A stretch of 20,596 nucleotides of DNA from a virus, in the IMG/VR virus record IMGVR_UViG_3300042881_003994, positions 1 to 20,596 of that record. One strand, 5' to 3'. The position numbers and the translations under genes are program-made. Shown here in pieces: positions 11,387 through 17,517 of this stretch (positions within the stretch are counted from its first letter, which is position 1; each line of letters begins with the position of its first letter). The notes under the pieces were generated by a model. It had not been told where the DNA came from, ran no database searches, and saw only the letters and a list, made by a program, of their open reading frames with translations.

Positions 11387-11560
11387 TTAGGTTTCGTGGA
11401 ATATCCACGTTGTTTCTTTATCTACCCGAAGCACCGAGAAAGGCCTATTGATTAACTCCTGTCGAGCTATTTCTTCTTTTTTTTCTTCAACTTTTGCAAC
11501 TGGCTTCTCGGTAGCCTTTTCTATGCTAATTTCGTTGCCGAAAAGATCGTATTGCTTCAT
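11387..11560 (-). CDS. small protein with N-terminal clamp-binding-like motif, 57 aa
   Basis: It starts MKQYDLFGNEISIEKATEKP. The QYDLF at residues 3-7 fits the bacterial sliding-clamp binding pattern (Q-x-x-L-F), here almost at the N-terminus. The rest is Lys/Glu-rich and probably disordered or helical until a hydrophobic end (FSVLRVDKETTWIF). The ATG overlaps the helicase stop as ATGA (11557-11560); a longer frame from 11581 would begin inside the helicase gene. Positioned between helicase and SSB-like genes, it could be a clamp-binding helper of replication. That role is inferred from one short motif. Confidence 0.7.
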   Translation of the reverse strand: MKQYDLFGNEISIEKATEKPVAKVEEKKEEIARQELINRPFSVLRVDKETTWIFHET

Positions 11561-12816
11561 GCCTGTTCCTCGAAAAACCAAGTGTGGGGAGCGAAGTATT
11601 TGATGCGAGAATAGGCCAGTGGTCCATCCCTGAGCTTCAGTTGGAGAAGTTCGTAGTCATAGGTCGATTGCCCTAGCTCCTGCACGTTTCCAGTGTGGCT
11701 CTTGCTGGGCCGGTGGAGCGCAATGACTCTGTGCGCGTCCTCCTCAATAGACCCAGCATCACGGAAGTCGCTCCTAGTTGGCGCACGATCTTCCCGTTCG
11801 TTGGAGCGGTTGAGTTGAGCCGCGACCATTAACACGCATCCAAGGGTTTTGCGGAGCGGTATCATGGCTTTAGACAACTGCCCCATGCGTTCGTAGGCTG
11901 AGCCATCGGTGCCCCTGATTAGCCCGAGGTAGTCAATGATTACTAGCTGAGGCTTCCAGCTTGCGGCCAATAGACGACAGCGAGATTCGATTTGGCCAAC
12001 AGTCATATCCTTGTCGAACACTCGGAGGTGTTGCTCCCCTAGTCGCTTTAGGGCTTTGAAATACTCCTGCTGCCTATCGCTCATCTCTTGGTTGATTTGC
12101 CGCAAATTCACCTTGCTGCGCTGTCCCGCGATTTGCTTAACGACAGCCCCGGCTGATGTTTCCAACGTAAAGTAGGCCACTCGAAGCCCCCGGTTGAGGT
12201 TGTGGCTGGCAATTTGGCTCATAAACGACGACTTACCTATCGAAGTCCGCGCCCCCACCACCACATATTCATGCGCTTCCATAGGCGAAGCCAACTTATC
12301 GAAGCTAGGCAGGCCGGTGGTTACTAGGTCGCGGTTGTCCCGAGTCCCCGCAATTTCCTGTTCAGCCCAAAGTTTAACCTCAGTGATCAGTTGGGTAAGA
12401 CTCGGAGCCTCCGATTCTGTGGGTTTTAAGTGGGTTTGCAGCCCTTCCACGAGTGTTGACACCTCCTCAGCCTTCCCGCCCCGTAAAACGCACGCAATCG
12501 TGTCCTGTAACGCTGGTTTAAGGGTGGCCAACTGTCCCTCCCATATCAGGCTTTTAAGGGCTTTACGTCCGGTGACTGAGCTTTGGCAGGCTTTCTCCGC
12601 CGCAAATAGCTCATCCGCTGGGCACTTATCGCCCAAAGCTAGGTAAACTGAGTTGCAATCTGTGAGTTGAGCCTTGCTTCTCAGCCCCACAAGGGTCTGC
12701 CAGAGGGTGCGGTGGGCGTTGCCGAACGCCGCGTTCGATAGTCCCTGCGCTATGCCATCGTCTATGAGTTCGGGGCAAGCTAGGCAAGCCCCTATGAATA
12801 TGCTTTCTTTGTTCAT
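11557..12816 (-). CDS. DnaB-type replicative helicase, 419 aa
   Basis: The RecA-like core is clear. Walker A is GARTSIGKS (residues 188-196), the catalytic-type FTLE is at 216-219, and Walker B is LVIIDYLG (291-298). AQLNR (333-337) and FRDAGSIEEDA (351-361) match the H3 and H4 DnaB motifs. The N-terminal 100 residues fit the small helical DnaB primase/loader-binding domain (CPELIDDGI, FGNAHRTLWQ). It would unwind DNA at the phage fork, 5'->3' as in the family; no phage primase gene was recognised in the window. ATG is coupled to the preceding AEACG-family gene (ATGA, 12813-12816). Confidence 0.95.
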   Translation of the reverse strand: MNKESIFIGACLACPELIDDGIAQGLSNAAFGNAHRTLWQTLVGLRSKAQLTDCNSVYLALGDKCPADELFAAEKACQSSVTGRKALKSLIWEGQLATLKPALQDTIACVLRGGKAEEVSTLVEGLQTHLKPTESEAPSLTQLITEVKLWAEQEIAGTRDNRDLVTTGLPSFDKLASPMEAHEYVVVGARTSIGKSSFMSQIASHNLNRGLRVAYFTLETSAGAVVKQIAGQRSKVNLRQINQEMSDRQQEYFKALKRLGEQHLRVFDKDMTVGQIESRCRLLAASWKPQLVIIDYLGLIRGTDGSAYERMGQLSKAMIPLRKTLGCVLMVAAQLNRSNEREDRAPTRSDFRDAGSIEEDAHRVIALHRPSKSHTGNVQELGQSTYDYELLQLKLRDGPLAYSRIKYFAPHTWFFEEQA

Positions 12817-14889: not shown

Positions 14890-15225
14890 TTATACCATAG
14901 GTTCAGTGTCAAGTGGTTTGAATGGCACTTTCGCGCTTTGTTTGTAAATGGCGTCCATTGCCGATTCAACGTCCGCAATCTCTTTCGTGGTTAGACTCAC
15001 TCCCTTCTTTTCGTCTTTTGTCTTTTGGTAGATTTCCGCCTCTACCATGCAAGACTCCAGCTCCCGCTCCACCCATGCCCTGAACGCTTTTGGATCAGTT
15101 ATGGTGAGGCCGGGAGCATCTCTCCAGCAGAGGGTGCGGAGCGTGCCCTGAAGCATCCCCGCGTAGTAGCTTGTGCAAATGTTACGTTGGTAAAGGTCTG
15201 CCCTGAATTCGTTATTTGTGTCCAT
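14890..15225 (-). CDS. hypothetical protein, 112 aa, last gene of the lysis-side operon
   Basis: It starts at the ATG at 15225 (MDTNNEFRADLYQRN), 16 bases after the stop of the 36-aa membrane protein; the longer frame from 15261 lies inside that small gene. It is mostly helical, with two Cys-containing hydrophobic stretches (NICTSYYAGMLQGTLRTLCW) and a Lys/Glu-rich middle. No transmembrane segment or catalytic motif. Function unknown. An A-rich leader (AAAATAAACAAAAC) without Shine-Dalgarno precedes it, and a good terminator follows. Confidence 0.7.
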   Translation of the reverse strand: MDTNNEFRADLYQRNICTSYYAGMLQGTLRTLCWRDAPGLTITDPKAFRAWVERELESCMVEAEIYQKTKDEKKGVSLTTKEIADVESAMDAIYKQSAKVPFKPLDTEPMV

Positions 15226-15241: not shown

Positions 15242-15352
15242 TTATTTATCCCAATGATCATCGTCTTCGTCGCGCCAGATCAACCAAAAAAGGATGAACG
15301 GGGCGATGAGAACGAGGGCCAAACCGAGGCCGAGAAGGTTGCTGGCGGTCAT
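15242..15352 (-). CDS. tiny single-span membrane protein, 36 aa, holin/lysis candidate
   Basis: A 36-codon frame: MTASNLLGLGLALVLIAPFI followed by LFWLIW and then an acidic tail RDEDDDHWDK. Residues 5-26 form one strongly hydrophobic helix, enough to span a membrane. The ATG overlaps the stop of the RHH-like gene as ATGA (15349-15352). It lies two genes downstream of the secreted lysozyme. Phage lysis cassettes place holins, pinholins or spanin-like small membrane proteins next to the endolysin, so this is a good candidate for one. No family match is claimed. Confidence 0.7.
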   Translation of the reverse strand: MTASNLLGLGLALVLIAPFILFWLIWRDEDDDHWDK

Positions 15353-15585
15353 AATTGTGTTGTTTCGTGCTGTTTTGCTGAGTTATCGGGCAGAGGTTTA
15401 CCGTTTACCGGAAGCCGGAAAATAAAAGCCCCTTCCCCCCGCATGGCATGATCGAAGAGTGCGTCAATCGACTCGCCTATGGGGGTTCCGTAGGCCGTGC
15501 GCCACGCTCTGAGACTGGCTAGGGTGCGAGGGTTAACTAGGCCGACAAGCCTCACCTTGGGCAGTCTATAGGGCTTAGGCGTCAT
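15349..15585 (-). CDS. ribbon-helix-helix-like protein, 78 aa
   Basis: From the ATG at 15585 (MTPKPYRLPKVRLVGLVNPR) the protein has a short basic strand (KVRLVGLV), then two helices (PRTLASLRAWRTAYG, then TPIGESIDALFDHAMRG). This is the strand-helix-helix layout of CopG/Arc-type dimeric DNA-binding proteins. The tail is polar. The start is set by an ATGA overlap with the 28-aa membrane peptide; longer frames from 15609 or 15702 run through that peptide or the lysozyme. It may regulate the lysis operon, or it may simply be linked to it. Confidence 0.65.
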   Translation of the reverse strand: MTPKPYRLPKVRLVGLVNPRTLASLRAWRTAYGTPIGESIDALFDHAMRGEGAFIFRLPVNGKPLPDNSAKQHETTQL

Positions 15586-15668
15586 CGCAGAAGCCTCACC
15601 GCGAGGCATAGGACTAGCGCGCCGATGCTTAGAAGGCAAAGCGCGGCGTTGAGAATGAGTCTTGTCAT
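15582..15668 (-). CDS. tiny single-span membrane peptide, 28 aa, holin/lysis candidate
   Basis: Twenty-eight codons: MTRLILNAALCLLSIGALVL and then CLAVRLLR. Almost the whole chain is one hydrophobic helix bracketed by Arg residues (R3 and R25, R28). The ATG overlaps the lysozyme stop as ATGA (15665-15668), and its stop overlaps the start of the RHH-like gene in the same way (15582-15585). The exact fit of both junctions, the perfect membrane-span composition and the place right behind a signal-peptide lysozyme argue for a real gene, possibly a holin or pinholin. It lies opposite a longer out-of-frame ORF that I consider a shadow. Confidence 0.65.
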   Translation of the reverse strand: MTRLILNAALCLLSIGALVLCLAVRLLR

Positions 15669-16051
15669 AGGTGTTTTTTGATTTTTGACCAGTAGCGATC
15701 AAGGTTGAGTTTCTTTTGGCCCGTTGCTTTCATGGCGTTCGGTCCGCCGTTCCAAATTCGGGCTTTTACCTCGTCGCTTTTTCCCTTGCCATAGTGGTTA
15801 ACGTAAAGTTGAAAGATCGCCTTCGATTTTTCAACATCGAATCGGTCGTTCAACGTGTAACGAGTCCCTGCGAATCGGTTAACGTCCCGCACGGTTATGG
15901 CCCAAATCTGAGCTATTCCCGCCGCACGTCCGCCATCCCCTACGGCAAGCGGGTTTCCCCCGCTTTCGACACGGCAAACAGCCTCCCATAGCCCCGCCCT
16001 TACGGGCAGGGCAGACACGGCAAGGCATAGGATGAAGAGAGCGCGTTTCAT
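15665..16051 (-). CDS. secreted lysozyme-like / lytic transglycosylase (endolysin), 128 aa
   Basis: Residues 1-19 are a signal peptide: basic MKR, hydrophobic ALFILCLAVSAL, then PVRA before Gly, a typical signal peptidase I site. The mature part starts GLWEAVCRVESGGNPLAVGD with E29 in the V-E-S-G-G-N-P context of SLT/lysozyme-fold enzymes. AAGIAQIW (43-50) is the 'GLxQ' block and IWNGGPNAMK (99-108) the late Asn-Gly block. It would cleave peptidoglycan; the signal suggests Sec export, so lysis may not need a large-pore holin. Neighbouring tiny membrane proteins support a lysis cassette. ATGA overlap with the upstream gene. Confidence 0.88.
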   Translation of the reverse strand: MKRALFILCLAVSALPVRAGLWEAVCRVESGGNPLAVGDGGRAAGIAQIWAITVRDVNRFAGTRYTLNDRFDVEKSKAIFQLYVNHYGKGKSDEVKARIWNGGPNAMKATGQKKLNLDRYWSKIKKHL

Positions 16052-16320
16052 GCGAGAGCCCCTTTCACGTCCGCCATCGTAAGTTTGCCCTTCATTACTC
16101 CGAACTTGTCAGAATAAAGCCCGCGCAACCATAACCGGGCGTTGGCGTCGGGCAAACCTCTTTCTCTGTTTACGTTTTCGTTAAATGAAGGGGCATTTTT
16201 TATGCCGCTATCCTGCGAGCGGTTAAACGCGGCAAGATTTTTGGCGTTCACATCAAAAGTCACGGAAGCGGGGAAGCCAAGGGCAATTTTGGCGTTGGTG
16301 TTTACGAGAGTGATTTTCAT
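16048..16320 (-). CDS. small hypothetical protein, 90 aa
   Basis: It starts MKITLVNTNAKIALGFPASV at the ATG at 16320 (ATGA overlap with the preceding stop; an earlier in-frame ATG at 16371 is inside that gene). The N-terminal half has beta-strand character, then an Asn-rich polar stretch (FNRSQDSGIKNAPSFNENVN), then a helical end (MKGKLTMADVKGALA). Not recognised. It lies immediately upstream of the lysozyme gene. Confidence 0.7.
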   Translation of the reverse strand: MKITLVNTNAKIALGFPASVTFDVNAKNLAAFNRSQDSGIKNAPSFNENVNRERGLPDANARLWLRGLYSDKFGVMKGKLTMADVKGALA

Positions 16321-16577
16321 GCGTTGCCCTCCGCTTTGCTTATAACTGAACCAATTCGGGCGCGAATCCATTCAGGGGATTCCCCGGCGTTCGCGTAAAC
16401 CAATTGCAAGGCCGCAAGCAATTCGGGCGCGGACGCAACCAATCGCATATTCGCAACGTTGGTGTCTTTAAAATTGGTTACGAATCTGCAAGAGGCAACA
16501 GTTTCGCCTAATGGCCCGTAAACAAGTTCCCCCGGCGCGTAATGCCAAGGCCCCGGTGTGTGTGTGTGTGTTTTCAT
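16317..16577 (-). CDS. HTPGPW-family phage protein, 86 aa
   Basis: It begins MKTHTHTPGPWHYAPGE, continues with YGPLGETVASCRF and NMRLVASAPELLAALQLVYA, and ends ARIGSVISKAEG. This 'HTPGPW...A-R-L-x-A-x-A-P-E-L-L-x-A-L...AIxKAEG' pattern is a very common small phage protein whose function I do not know. The repeated TH codons give a GT/AC dinucleotide run (16556-16570). It is the first gene of the lysis-side group, preceded by a strong hairpin (16595-16621). Confidence 0.85.
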   Translation of the reverse strand: MKTHTHTPGPWHYAPGELVYGPLGETVASCRFVTNFKDTNVANMRLVASAPELLAALQLVYANAGESPEWIRARIGSVISKAEGNA

Positions 16578-16644: not shown

Positions 16645-17517
16645 TCAATCGGCGTGCGTTTCCATCTTTCCGAGGATGAAATCGGCGGCCCTTTGTCCCT
16701 GCGCGGCGGCGTGAATTACCAATTTGGCATCCTCTTTCAACTGCTTTAGCCAACCTTGAATGTAAGAGGCGGATGCGGGCAGGGTGTTGTCAATCCCCGA
16801 AACAGCGCAGAGGAACGCCGCCCCCATTTCCGCAACCAACTCCTCTTTTGCGTAAGTTTCGCCGCCAAACGCCGCAACCTCCGCAACGCCTTTCCGGTTC
16901 AACCGACTTTCGTGCCCCGTTGCGTGCGCTAGTTCATGGAATAGGGTTGAATAATAATTCCCCGACGTGTCAAACGTCTCCGCTTTTGGCATTTGAACGC
17001 TATCCGTTGATGGGCGGTAATAAGCCCTATCCCCGCCGTGTGCCAATTTGGGAGCCCTTGGCATATTAGAAACAATCTTTTCCGCCTCTGCTACGGGGTT
17101 GAACGCCGTTCCTTCGATCTTTTCCGCCGCCCATTCTATGCCCTCGCACTGTTCAACGTTGAAAACCGTGTAATACTTTAGGAAAGGGATTTTCTTCGGC
17201 TTGCCGGTAGCGTCCTTTTCTGTTTTGCTATCAACCCAATTCCAAAACACTACCGGCGTTCCCTTCTCCCCTTTCCGCACGCTTCCATTTAGTTCGGCGG
17301 CTTGTTTGTAAGTGAGCCAAAACGGGCAAGAATAAGGGGAAAAGGATAGCAGAAACCAATTTATGCCCCGGTAGGATTTGCGGCTTCCAAAGTTTGCAGG
17401 GTTGCCGCCGTTTTGCGCTTTCCAAGGTTTGCGCCAAGGAACCGTCCCCGCTTCTAATTGGGAAACGATGCGTTCCGTGATTATGCTATAAACGTCTTTC
17501 TTTTCTTCCGTCTTCAT
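16645..17517 (-). CDS. ardC: ArdC-like antirestriction protein, 290 aa
   Basis: The N-terminal part (about residues 8-125) has the features of the ArdC single-stranded-DNA-binding domain: VYSIITERIVSQLEAGTVPW, then RKPW, then YRGINWFLLS, then FWLTYKQAAELNGSVRKGEK. The C-terminal part is a zinc-metallopeptidase-like domain with FHELAHATGH (HELAH 194-198, third His 202) and EELVAEMGAAF (225-235). This is the two-domain layout of the ArdC family, known for protecting incoming DNA from restriction. It lies among the early minus genes nearest the control region, fitting early protection of phage DNA. The leader has ACAGGAAACACAAACACAA before ATG, related to the shared leader of the four genes before it. 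Confidence 0.92.
   Translation of the reverse strand: MKTEEKKDVYSIITERIVSQLEAGTVPWRKPWKAQNGGNPANFGSRKSYRGINWFLLSFSPYSCPFWLTYKQAAELNGSVRKGEKGTPVVFWNWVDSKTEKDATGKPKKIPFLKYYTVFNVEQCEGIEWAAEKIEGTAFNPVAEAEKIVSNMPRAPKLAHGGDRAYYRPSTDSVQMPKAETFDTSGNYYSTLFHELAHATGHESRLNRKGVAEVAAFGGETYAKEELVAEMGAAFLCAVSGIDNTLPASASYIQGWLKQLKEDAKLVIHAAAQGQRAADFILGKMETHAD

Follow-up and report, generated by a model that had tools for sequence, protein, structure and literature searches.

Gene arrangement at the locus

The window analyzed here, by which the whole stretch of 20,596 bases is meant, is an IMG/VR virus record derived from an uncultured tailed phage of ~38 kb that belongs to a family of uncultured freshwater phages. 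On the minus strand of the window four genes lie head to tail in the order lysozyme (15665..16051, 128 aa), a single-span membrane peptide of 28 aa (15582..15668), a 78-aa protein with two predicted helices that is labeled RHH-like (15349..15585), and an ORF encoding a 36-aa membrane protein with the acidic tail DEDDDHWDK (15242..15352). Each of the three junctions is a 4-nt ATGA overlap. Both this arrangement and the description of the two tiny proteins as one hydrophobic span with charged ends had been given in an earlier note on this DNA, and both were recovered. The block is embedded in genes of the same strand. Upstream are small ORFs, of which a co-directional 90-aa ORF (16048..16320) overlaps the lysozyme start by 4 nt, and a gene for an ArdC-type antirestriction protein (16645..17517; PF08401/PF18818, phrog_7245). 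Downstream are a conserved ORF beginning with MDTNNEF (14890..15225), which is the next co-directional gene and has homologues in the same downstream position in G001–G008, an exonuclease gene, and the gene for a DnaB-like helicase (11557..12816; phrog_19) that was used as backbone marker for the tree described below. The structural genes are found on the plus strand, opposite to the block. Within the upstream region, the gene at 16317–16577 begins with a CA-repeat (read as HTHTHT…), the length of which varies between relatives, and slippage at this repeat could turn the gene on or off.

Relatives were collected from viral contigs, with the sequences of all four proteins of the block as queries, which gave about 40 related contigs that reduce to 27 distinct cassettes carrying the 28-aa gene. 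To look for a host, 84,980 bacterial and archaeal genomes were scanned twice, and neither the RHH-like protein nor the lysozyme had a relative there; the search for cultured relatives of the RHH-like protein returned none. Judged by the backbone, phage C75C1 (terminase 44%) comes closest, and among its small proteins, read by eye, there was no matching cassette and no obvious endolysin. Scans for promoters and terminators gave no clear excess over shuffles, so these scans offer no evidence on the timing of the block.

The tiny reading frames are conserved genes

In every one of the 27 distinct cassettes the 28-aa frame is open, and its overlap with the gene that follows is always exactly 4 nt. 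The changes it has accumulated are overwhelmingly synonymous, with a pN/pS of 0.15 in the main group (21 unique sequences) and 0.14 in a divergent group (5 sequences), and in cassettes where it follows a different gene it often carries a Shine-Dalgarno sequence (ggagg) of its own. The corresponding pN/pS values are 0.23 for the RHH-like gene, 0.26 for the lysozyme and 0.34 for the acidic-tailed class to which the 36-aa protein belongs. As the frame is kept and the pN/pS ratios are low and comparable to that of the lysozyme, the 28-aa and 36-aa ORFs are protein-coding genes, in line with the earlier proposal that both are real and conserved, and all four overlapping genes of the block are under purifying selection. 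Neither tiny protein has a match above noise in Pfam or PHROGs, i.e., no known family in these collections holds them. Ordinary gene calling would miss proteins of this size, although no gene of the block is under tighter constraint than that for the 28-aa peptide.

Every relative for which enough sequence is available has, downstream of the RHH-like gene, an acidic-tailed, single-span protein of 36–45 aa. It occurs in several sequence types that share an architecture of a span, aromatic residues, Arg or Lys and an Asp/Glu-rich end, and it is present with or without the signal peptide, the 28-aa gene or the lysozyme. The acidic-tailed protein is thus the universal small protein of the family and the 28-aa peptide is not universal. 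Relatives with an intact lysozyme and both small frames broken, which the earlier note had named as the case that would speak against its proposal, were not seen, because relatives that lack the 28-aa gene keep the acidic-tailed membrane protein.

The lysozyme and its exchange for another membrane peptide

The lysozyme matches the Pfam SLT family (PF01464) with 26.2 bits against a cut-off of 21.3, and its whole domain aligns with i-type lysozymes at 1e-10 to 6e-8 (8bbu at 1e-10, also 3ab6). Glu29 in the first helix and the NGGP region, aligned with 8bbu and 3ab6, are invariant in eight relatives. On the basis of these alignments the protein is assigned to the SLT/i-type (destabilase) family. 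A relative is found in Cellulophaga phages, where its annotation reads destabilase-like lysozyme; the catalytic domain is of the same sequence family as those of 8bbu, 3ab6 and the lysozyme of Cellulophaga phage Calle_1. In Calle_1 the annotation shows no tiny membrane ORFs next to the lysozyme gene, unlike the window with its Sec-type leader and four-gene overlap. Tiny membrane ORFs behind homologous lysozymes, for which the earlier note had suggested a search, are rare in distant phages with related lysozymes; as few small membrane ORFs accompany the gene at such loci, their linkage to it is peculiar to this group of phages.

Read by eye, the leader of the window's lysozyme, MKRALFILCLAVSALPVRA, looks like a cleavable Sec-type signal (LAVSALPVRA/ARA), which supports the claim of a Sec-type leader. 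A second lysozyme type (PPESFF; L031, L033, L036, and L051) has GAA at this position, so that both types carry, by eye, a Sec-type leader with an A-x-A-like end. Because the ARA/VRA before GLWEA at the end of the leader looks cleavable, the lysozyme is not a clear SAR endolysin; it would be exported by Sec, lose its leader and then cut peptidoglycan. In L031, L033, and L036 the middle part of the lysozyme differs while the start and the C-terminus are common with the first type, and these lysozymes are domain-level recombinants.

The slot before the 28-aa gene is occupied by the lysozyme in 20 of the 27 cassettes and by a peptide called MKSLF in the other 7; none has both and none has neither. 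MKSLF is a membrane peptide unrelated to the lysozyme, with 36 codons (38 in one case), located directly before the 28-aa gene, and it has a pN/pS of 0.34 and no family match. A dedicated search found it in nine contigs. A profile search of 19 records matched the lysozyme in 14, with no second lysozyme match in the same record among the lysozyme phages, and gave no match in G004, G006, G007, G008, and G009, all of which are MKSLF records. One contig that seemed to hold both cassettes (IMGVR_UViG_3300020042_011731, L204) is a chimera in which two related genomes are joined head to head, with a separate DnaB in either half, and is probably an assembly artefact; its halves were therefore counted apart. 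As the 20 and 7 cassettes share ancestry and are not independent counts, the exchange was judged on a DnaB tree of 25 sequences, where the MKSLF rows do not form one clade (AU p 0.009) and four changes between lysozyme and MKSLF are placed, at least two of them forced by well-supported branches. The swap is hence polyphyletic and has occurred repeatedly, as if the slot met a needed function.

The MKSLF genome G004 (38,064 bp) is nearly complete: it is close in size to its relatives of 38.2–39.0 kb and, judging from the gene order of G002, seems to lack no more than part of a tail gene. Among its 39 larger proteins no peptidoglycan hydrolase was recognized, either in the full set of 22 families matched in Pfam, in the 25 NCBIfam families listed out of 26 matched, or among the PHROG matches listed (25 of 46 families). 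One may ask whether, in some dsDNA tailed phages, MKSLF together with the 28-aa and acidic-tailed peptides alone would lyse the host without any peptidoglycan-cutting enzyme, a proposition that we regard as very doubtful. Single-gene lysis proteins (Sgl), known from ssRNA (and ssDNA) phages, are small membrane proteins that need no endolysin to bring about lysis (PMC10229422). MKSLF, being a small membrane peptide, is a possible analogue, and it differs from Sgl in coming from dsDNA tailed phages, in having no family match and in that its role in lysis is putative. G004 and G007, both MKSLF phages, carry an ArdA antirestriction gene (L122:18126–18641 in G004) where the window and others have ArdC.

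Partners of the 28-aa peptide

The lysozyme gene overlaps the 28-aa gene in 6 of the 27 cassettes, is located 161–1057 nt upstream of it in 14 and is absent in 7, and in relatives variable small ORFs are inserted between the two. The 28-aa gene is locked instead to the RHH-like gene, its constant partner (4-nt overlap in 27/27), so the view of the 28-aa gene as the specific companion of the lysozyme had to be given up. Some relatives have a lysozyme but no 28-aa gene (L016 and L062), and a third group (L016, L054–L062) has the RHH-like protein without the 28-aa gene; part of this group has a lysozyme without leader. In L054–L061 genes for an amidoligase and a class II glutamine amidotransferase are found between the leaderless lysozyme and the RHH-like gene. 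The DnaB of L060 and L061 is 98% identical to that of the window, which indicates that the whole accessory block has been exchanged.

The motif AWR..YG.P.G...DA...H of the RHH-like protein is conserved in 19 aligned relatives, and its core (AWR, YG.P.G, and DA) is common to all groups. The protein has no match in Pfam or PDB; hits of its profile to capsid proteins in PDB are at chance level and were discarded. The AF2 model is poor (pLDDT 54), with helices at 19–32 and 36–48 and no confident strand, and "RHH-like" is kept as a lead.

It is conceivable that the 28-aa peptide and the RHH-like protein form a unit of their own, i.e., a toxin-antitoxin or self-regulated toxic-peptide pair in which a tiny membrane-depolarizing peptide would be combined with a DNA-binding regulator and which would sit in the lysozyme operon by chance. 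The overlap in 27/27 cassettes with the RHH-like gene, compared to 6/27 with the lysozyme, favors this, and in size and charge the peptide resembles membrane-active type I toxins. Against it, RHH-like genes occur without the 28-aa gene in the third group, the RHH fold is weakly modeled, type II antitoxins neutralize soluble toxins, and no toxin-antitoxin or defense family was matched in Pfam, PHROGs or PADLOC; such a pair is consequently considered improbable.

The invariant polar residues of the 28-aa peptide (R3, N7, S14, C21, and R25) fall at 300–340 degrees on a helical wheel, on a 40-degree face of the helix. Of 80,730 possible choices of five positions only 9 give so narrow a face and, as the set was chosen after looking, this suggests an interacting or pore-lining face without proving it. 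The polar face on the helix, along with the presence of two proteins of one span each in the operon of a lysozyme with a Sec-type leader, speaks for the earlier idea of a pinholin pair, in which the 28-aa and 36-aa proteins would be effector and inhibitor that control the lysozyme. The leader, however, looks cleavable, leaving no clear SAR endolysin for a pinholin to release, of the two small genes only that for the 28-aa peptide is dispensable, and the RHH-like gene lies between them, all of which makes this pairing highly improbable.

Possible function of the block

The block is best explained (probability about 0.45) as a translationally coupled module for attack on the cell envelope, for which we infer lysis as the most likely purpose. 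In such a module the acidic-tailed protein, oriented N-out, C-in as predicted from its charge pattern, would be the central membrane component, allowing the attack or setting its time, like a holin or the releasin of phage Mu. The 28-aa peptide, with its one polar helix face, may oligomerize in the membrane as an accessory factor that is pore-forming or modulating, and would be made in step with the RHH-like protein, which in turn may regulate the block or the 28-aa peptide. Both tiny proteins are small membrane proteins with at least one span that are encoded together with a lysozyme, the features looked for in a holin or pinholin. Neither matched a holin family in Pfam or PHROGs above noise; as holins are a functional class, the missing family match does not exclude holin function. 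In the nearly complete genome G002, the 28-aa, the 36-aa and a late 132-aa protein are the only conserved small hydrophobic ORFs that are not antisense-like, so that the block holds two of the three membrane-protein candidates. The 132-aa membrane protein is encoded on the late strand (L122:3953–4351 in G004, also in G001–G003, G005, and G007; phrog_6637), is conserved at 96–99%, and is an equally good holin candidate.

Counting against lysis is the location of the block on the replication strand between the antirestriction genes and DnaB, away from the structural genes, as are the frequent distance of the 28-aa gene from the lysozyme, its absence in L016 and L062, and the rival 132-aa holin candidate. 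Of the lysis cassette proposed earlier, the lysozyme with two small membrane genes stands, in a position unlike that of classical late lysis genes. The same location fits an early host-takeover or superinfection-exclusion block, which would alter the envelope early in infection, e.g., to block a second phage, and would leave lysis to genes elsewhere, perhaps to the 132-aa holin candidate. The block shares strand and neighborhood with the ArdC/ArdA antirestriction genes and lies upstream of DnaB; its accessory surroundings are hypervariable, and a conserved late membrane protein does exist. On the other hand, there is no recognizable endolysin elsewhere in G004 among the Pfam, NCBIfam and PHROG families listed, the lysozyme phages have no second lysozyme match in the same record, and strand and gene order alone do not give the timing. 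An early role is on balance unlikely, though it deserves to be taken seriously, and attack on the envelope in the service of lysis remains the preferred reading.

Among the closest known systems is that of phage 21, where S21 and R21 are a pinholin and a SAR endolysin; S21, about 70 residues long, spans the membrane twice and is encoded in a late lysis cassette. The block resembles S21/R21 in that a small hydrophobic peptide shares one operon with a lysozyme predicted to be Sec-exported, and differs in that its peptides are single-span, only 28 and 36 aa long and encoded on the replication strand. The gp22/gp25 pair of phage Mu consists of a SAR endolysin and a releasin, i.e., an exported endolysin without a holin, where gp25 (99 aa, DUF2730) releases the SAR endolysin (PMC9239132). 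Like gp25, the acidic-tailed protein would span the membrane at its N-terminus, expose almost nothing to the periplasm and end in an acidic tail in the cytoplasm, a likeness of architecture only; unlike gp25, its tail is about 10 residues, the accompanying lysozyme has a leader that looks cleavable, and no sequence relation was found, with no Pfam match to DUF2730 in the block.

The ingredients, an exported lysozyme and a small membrane protein, are thus known; new are the size of the peptides, the coupling to an RHH-like gene and the exchange of lysozyme for MKSLF. If the tiny proteins act in lysis, they would add very small membrane-active factors to the means of lysis, and the exchange would be a natural experiment that shows if tailed phages are able to do without an endolysin; if they act early they would represent a new kind of envelope-directed accessory block beside antirestriction genes.
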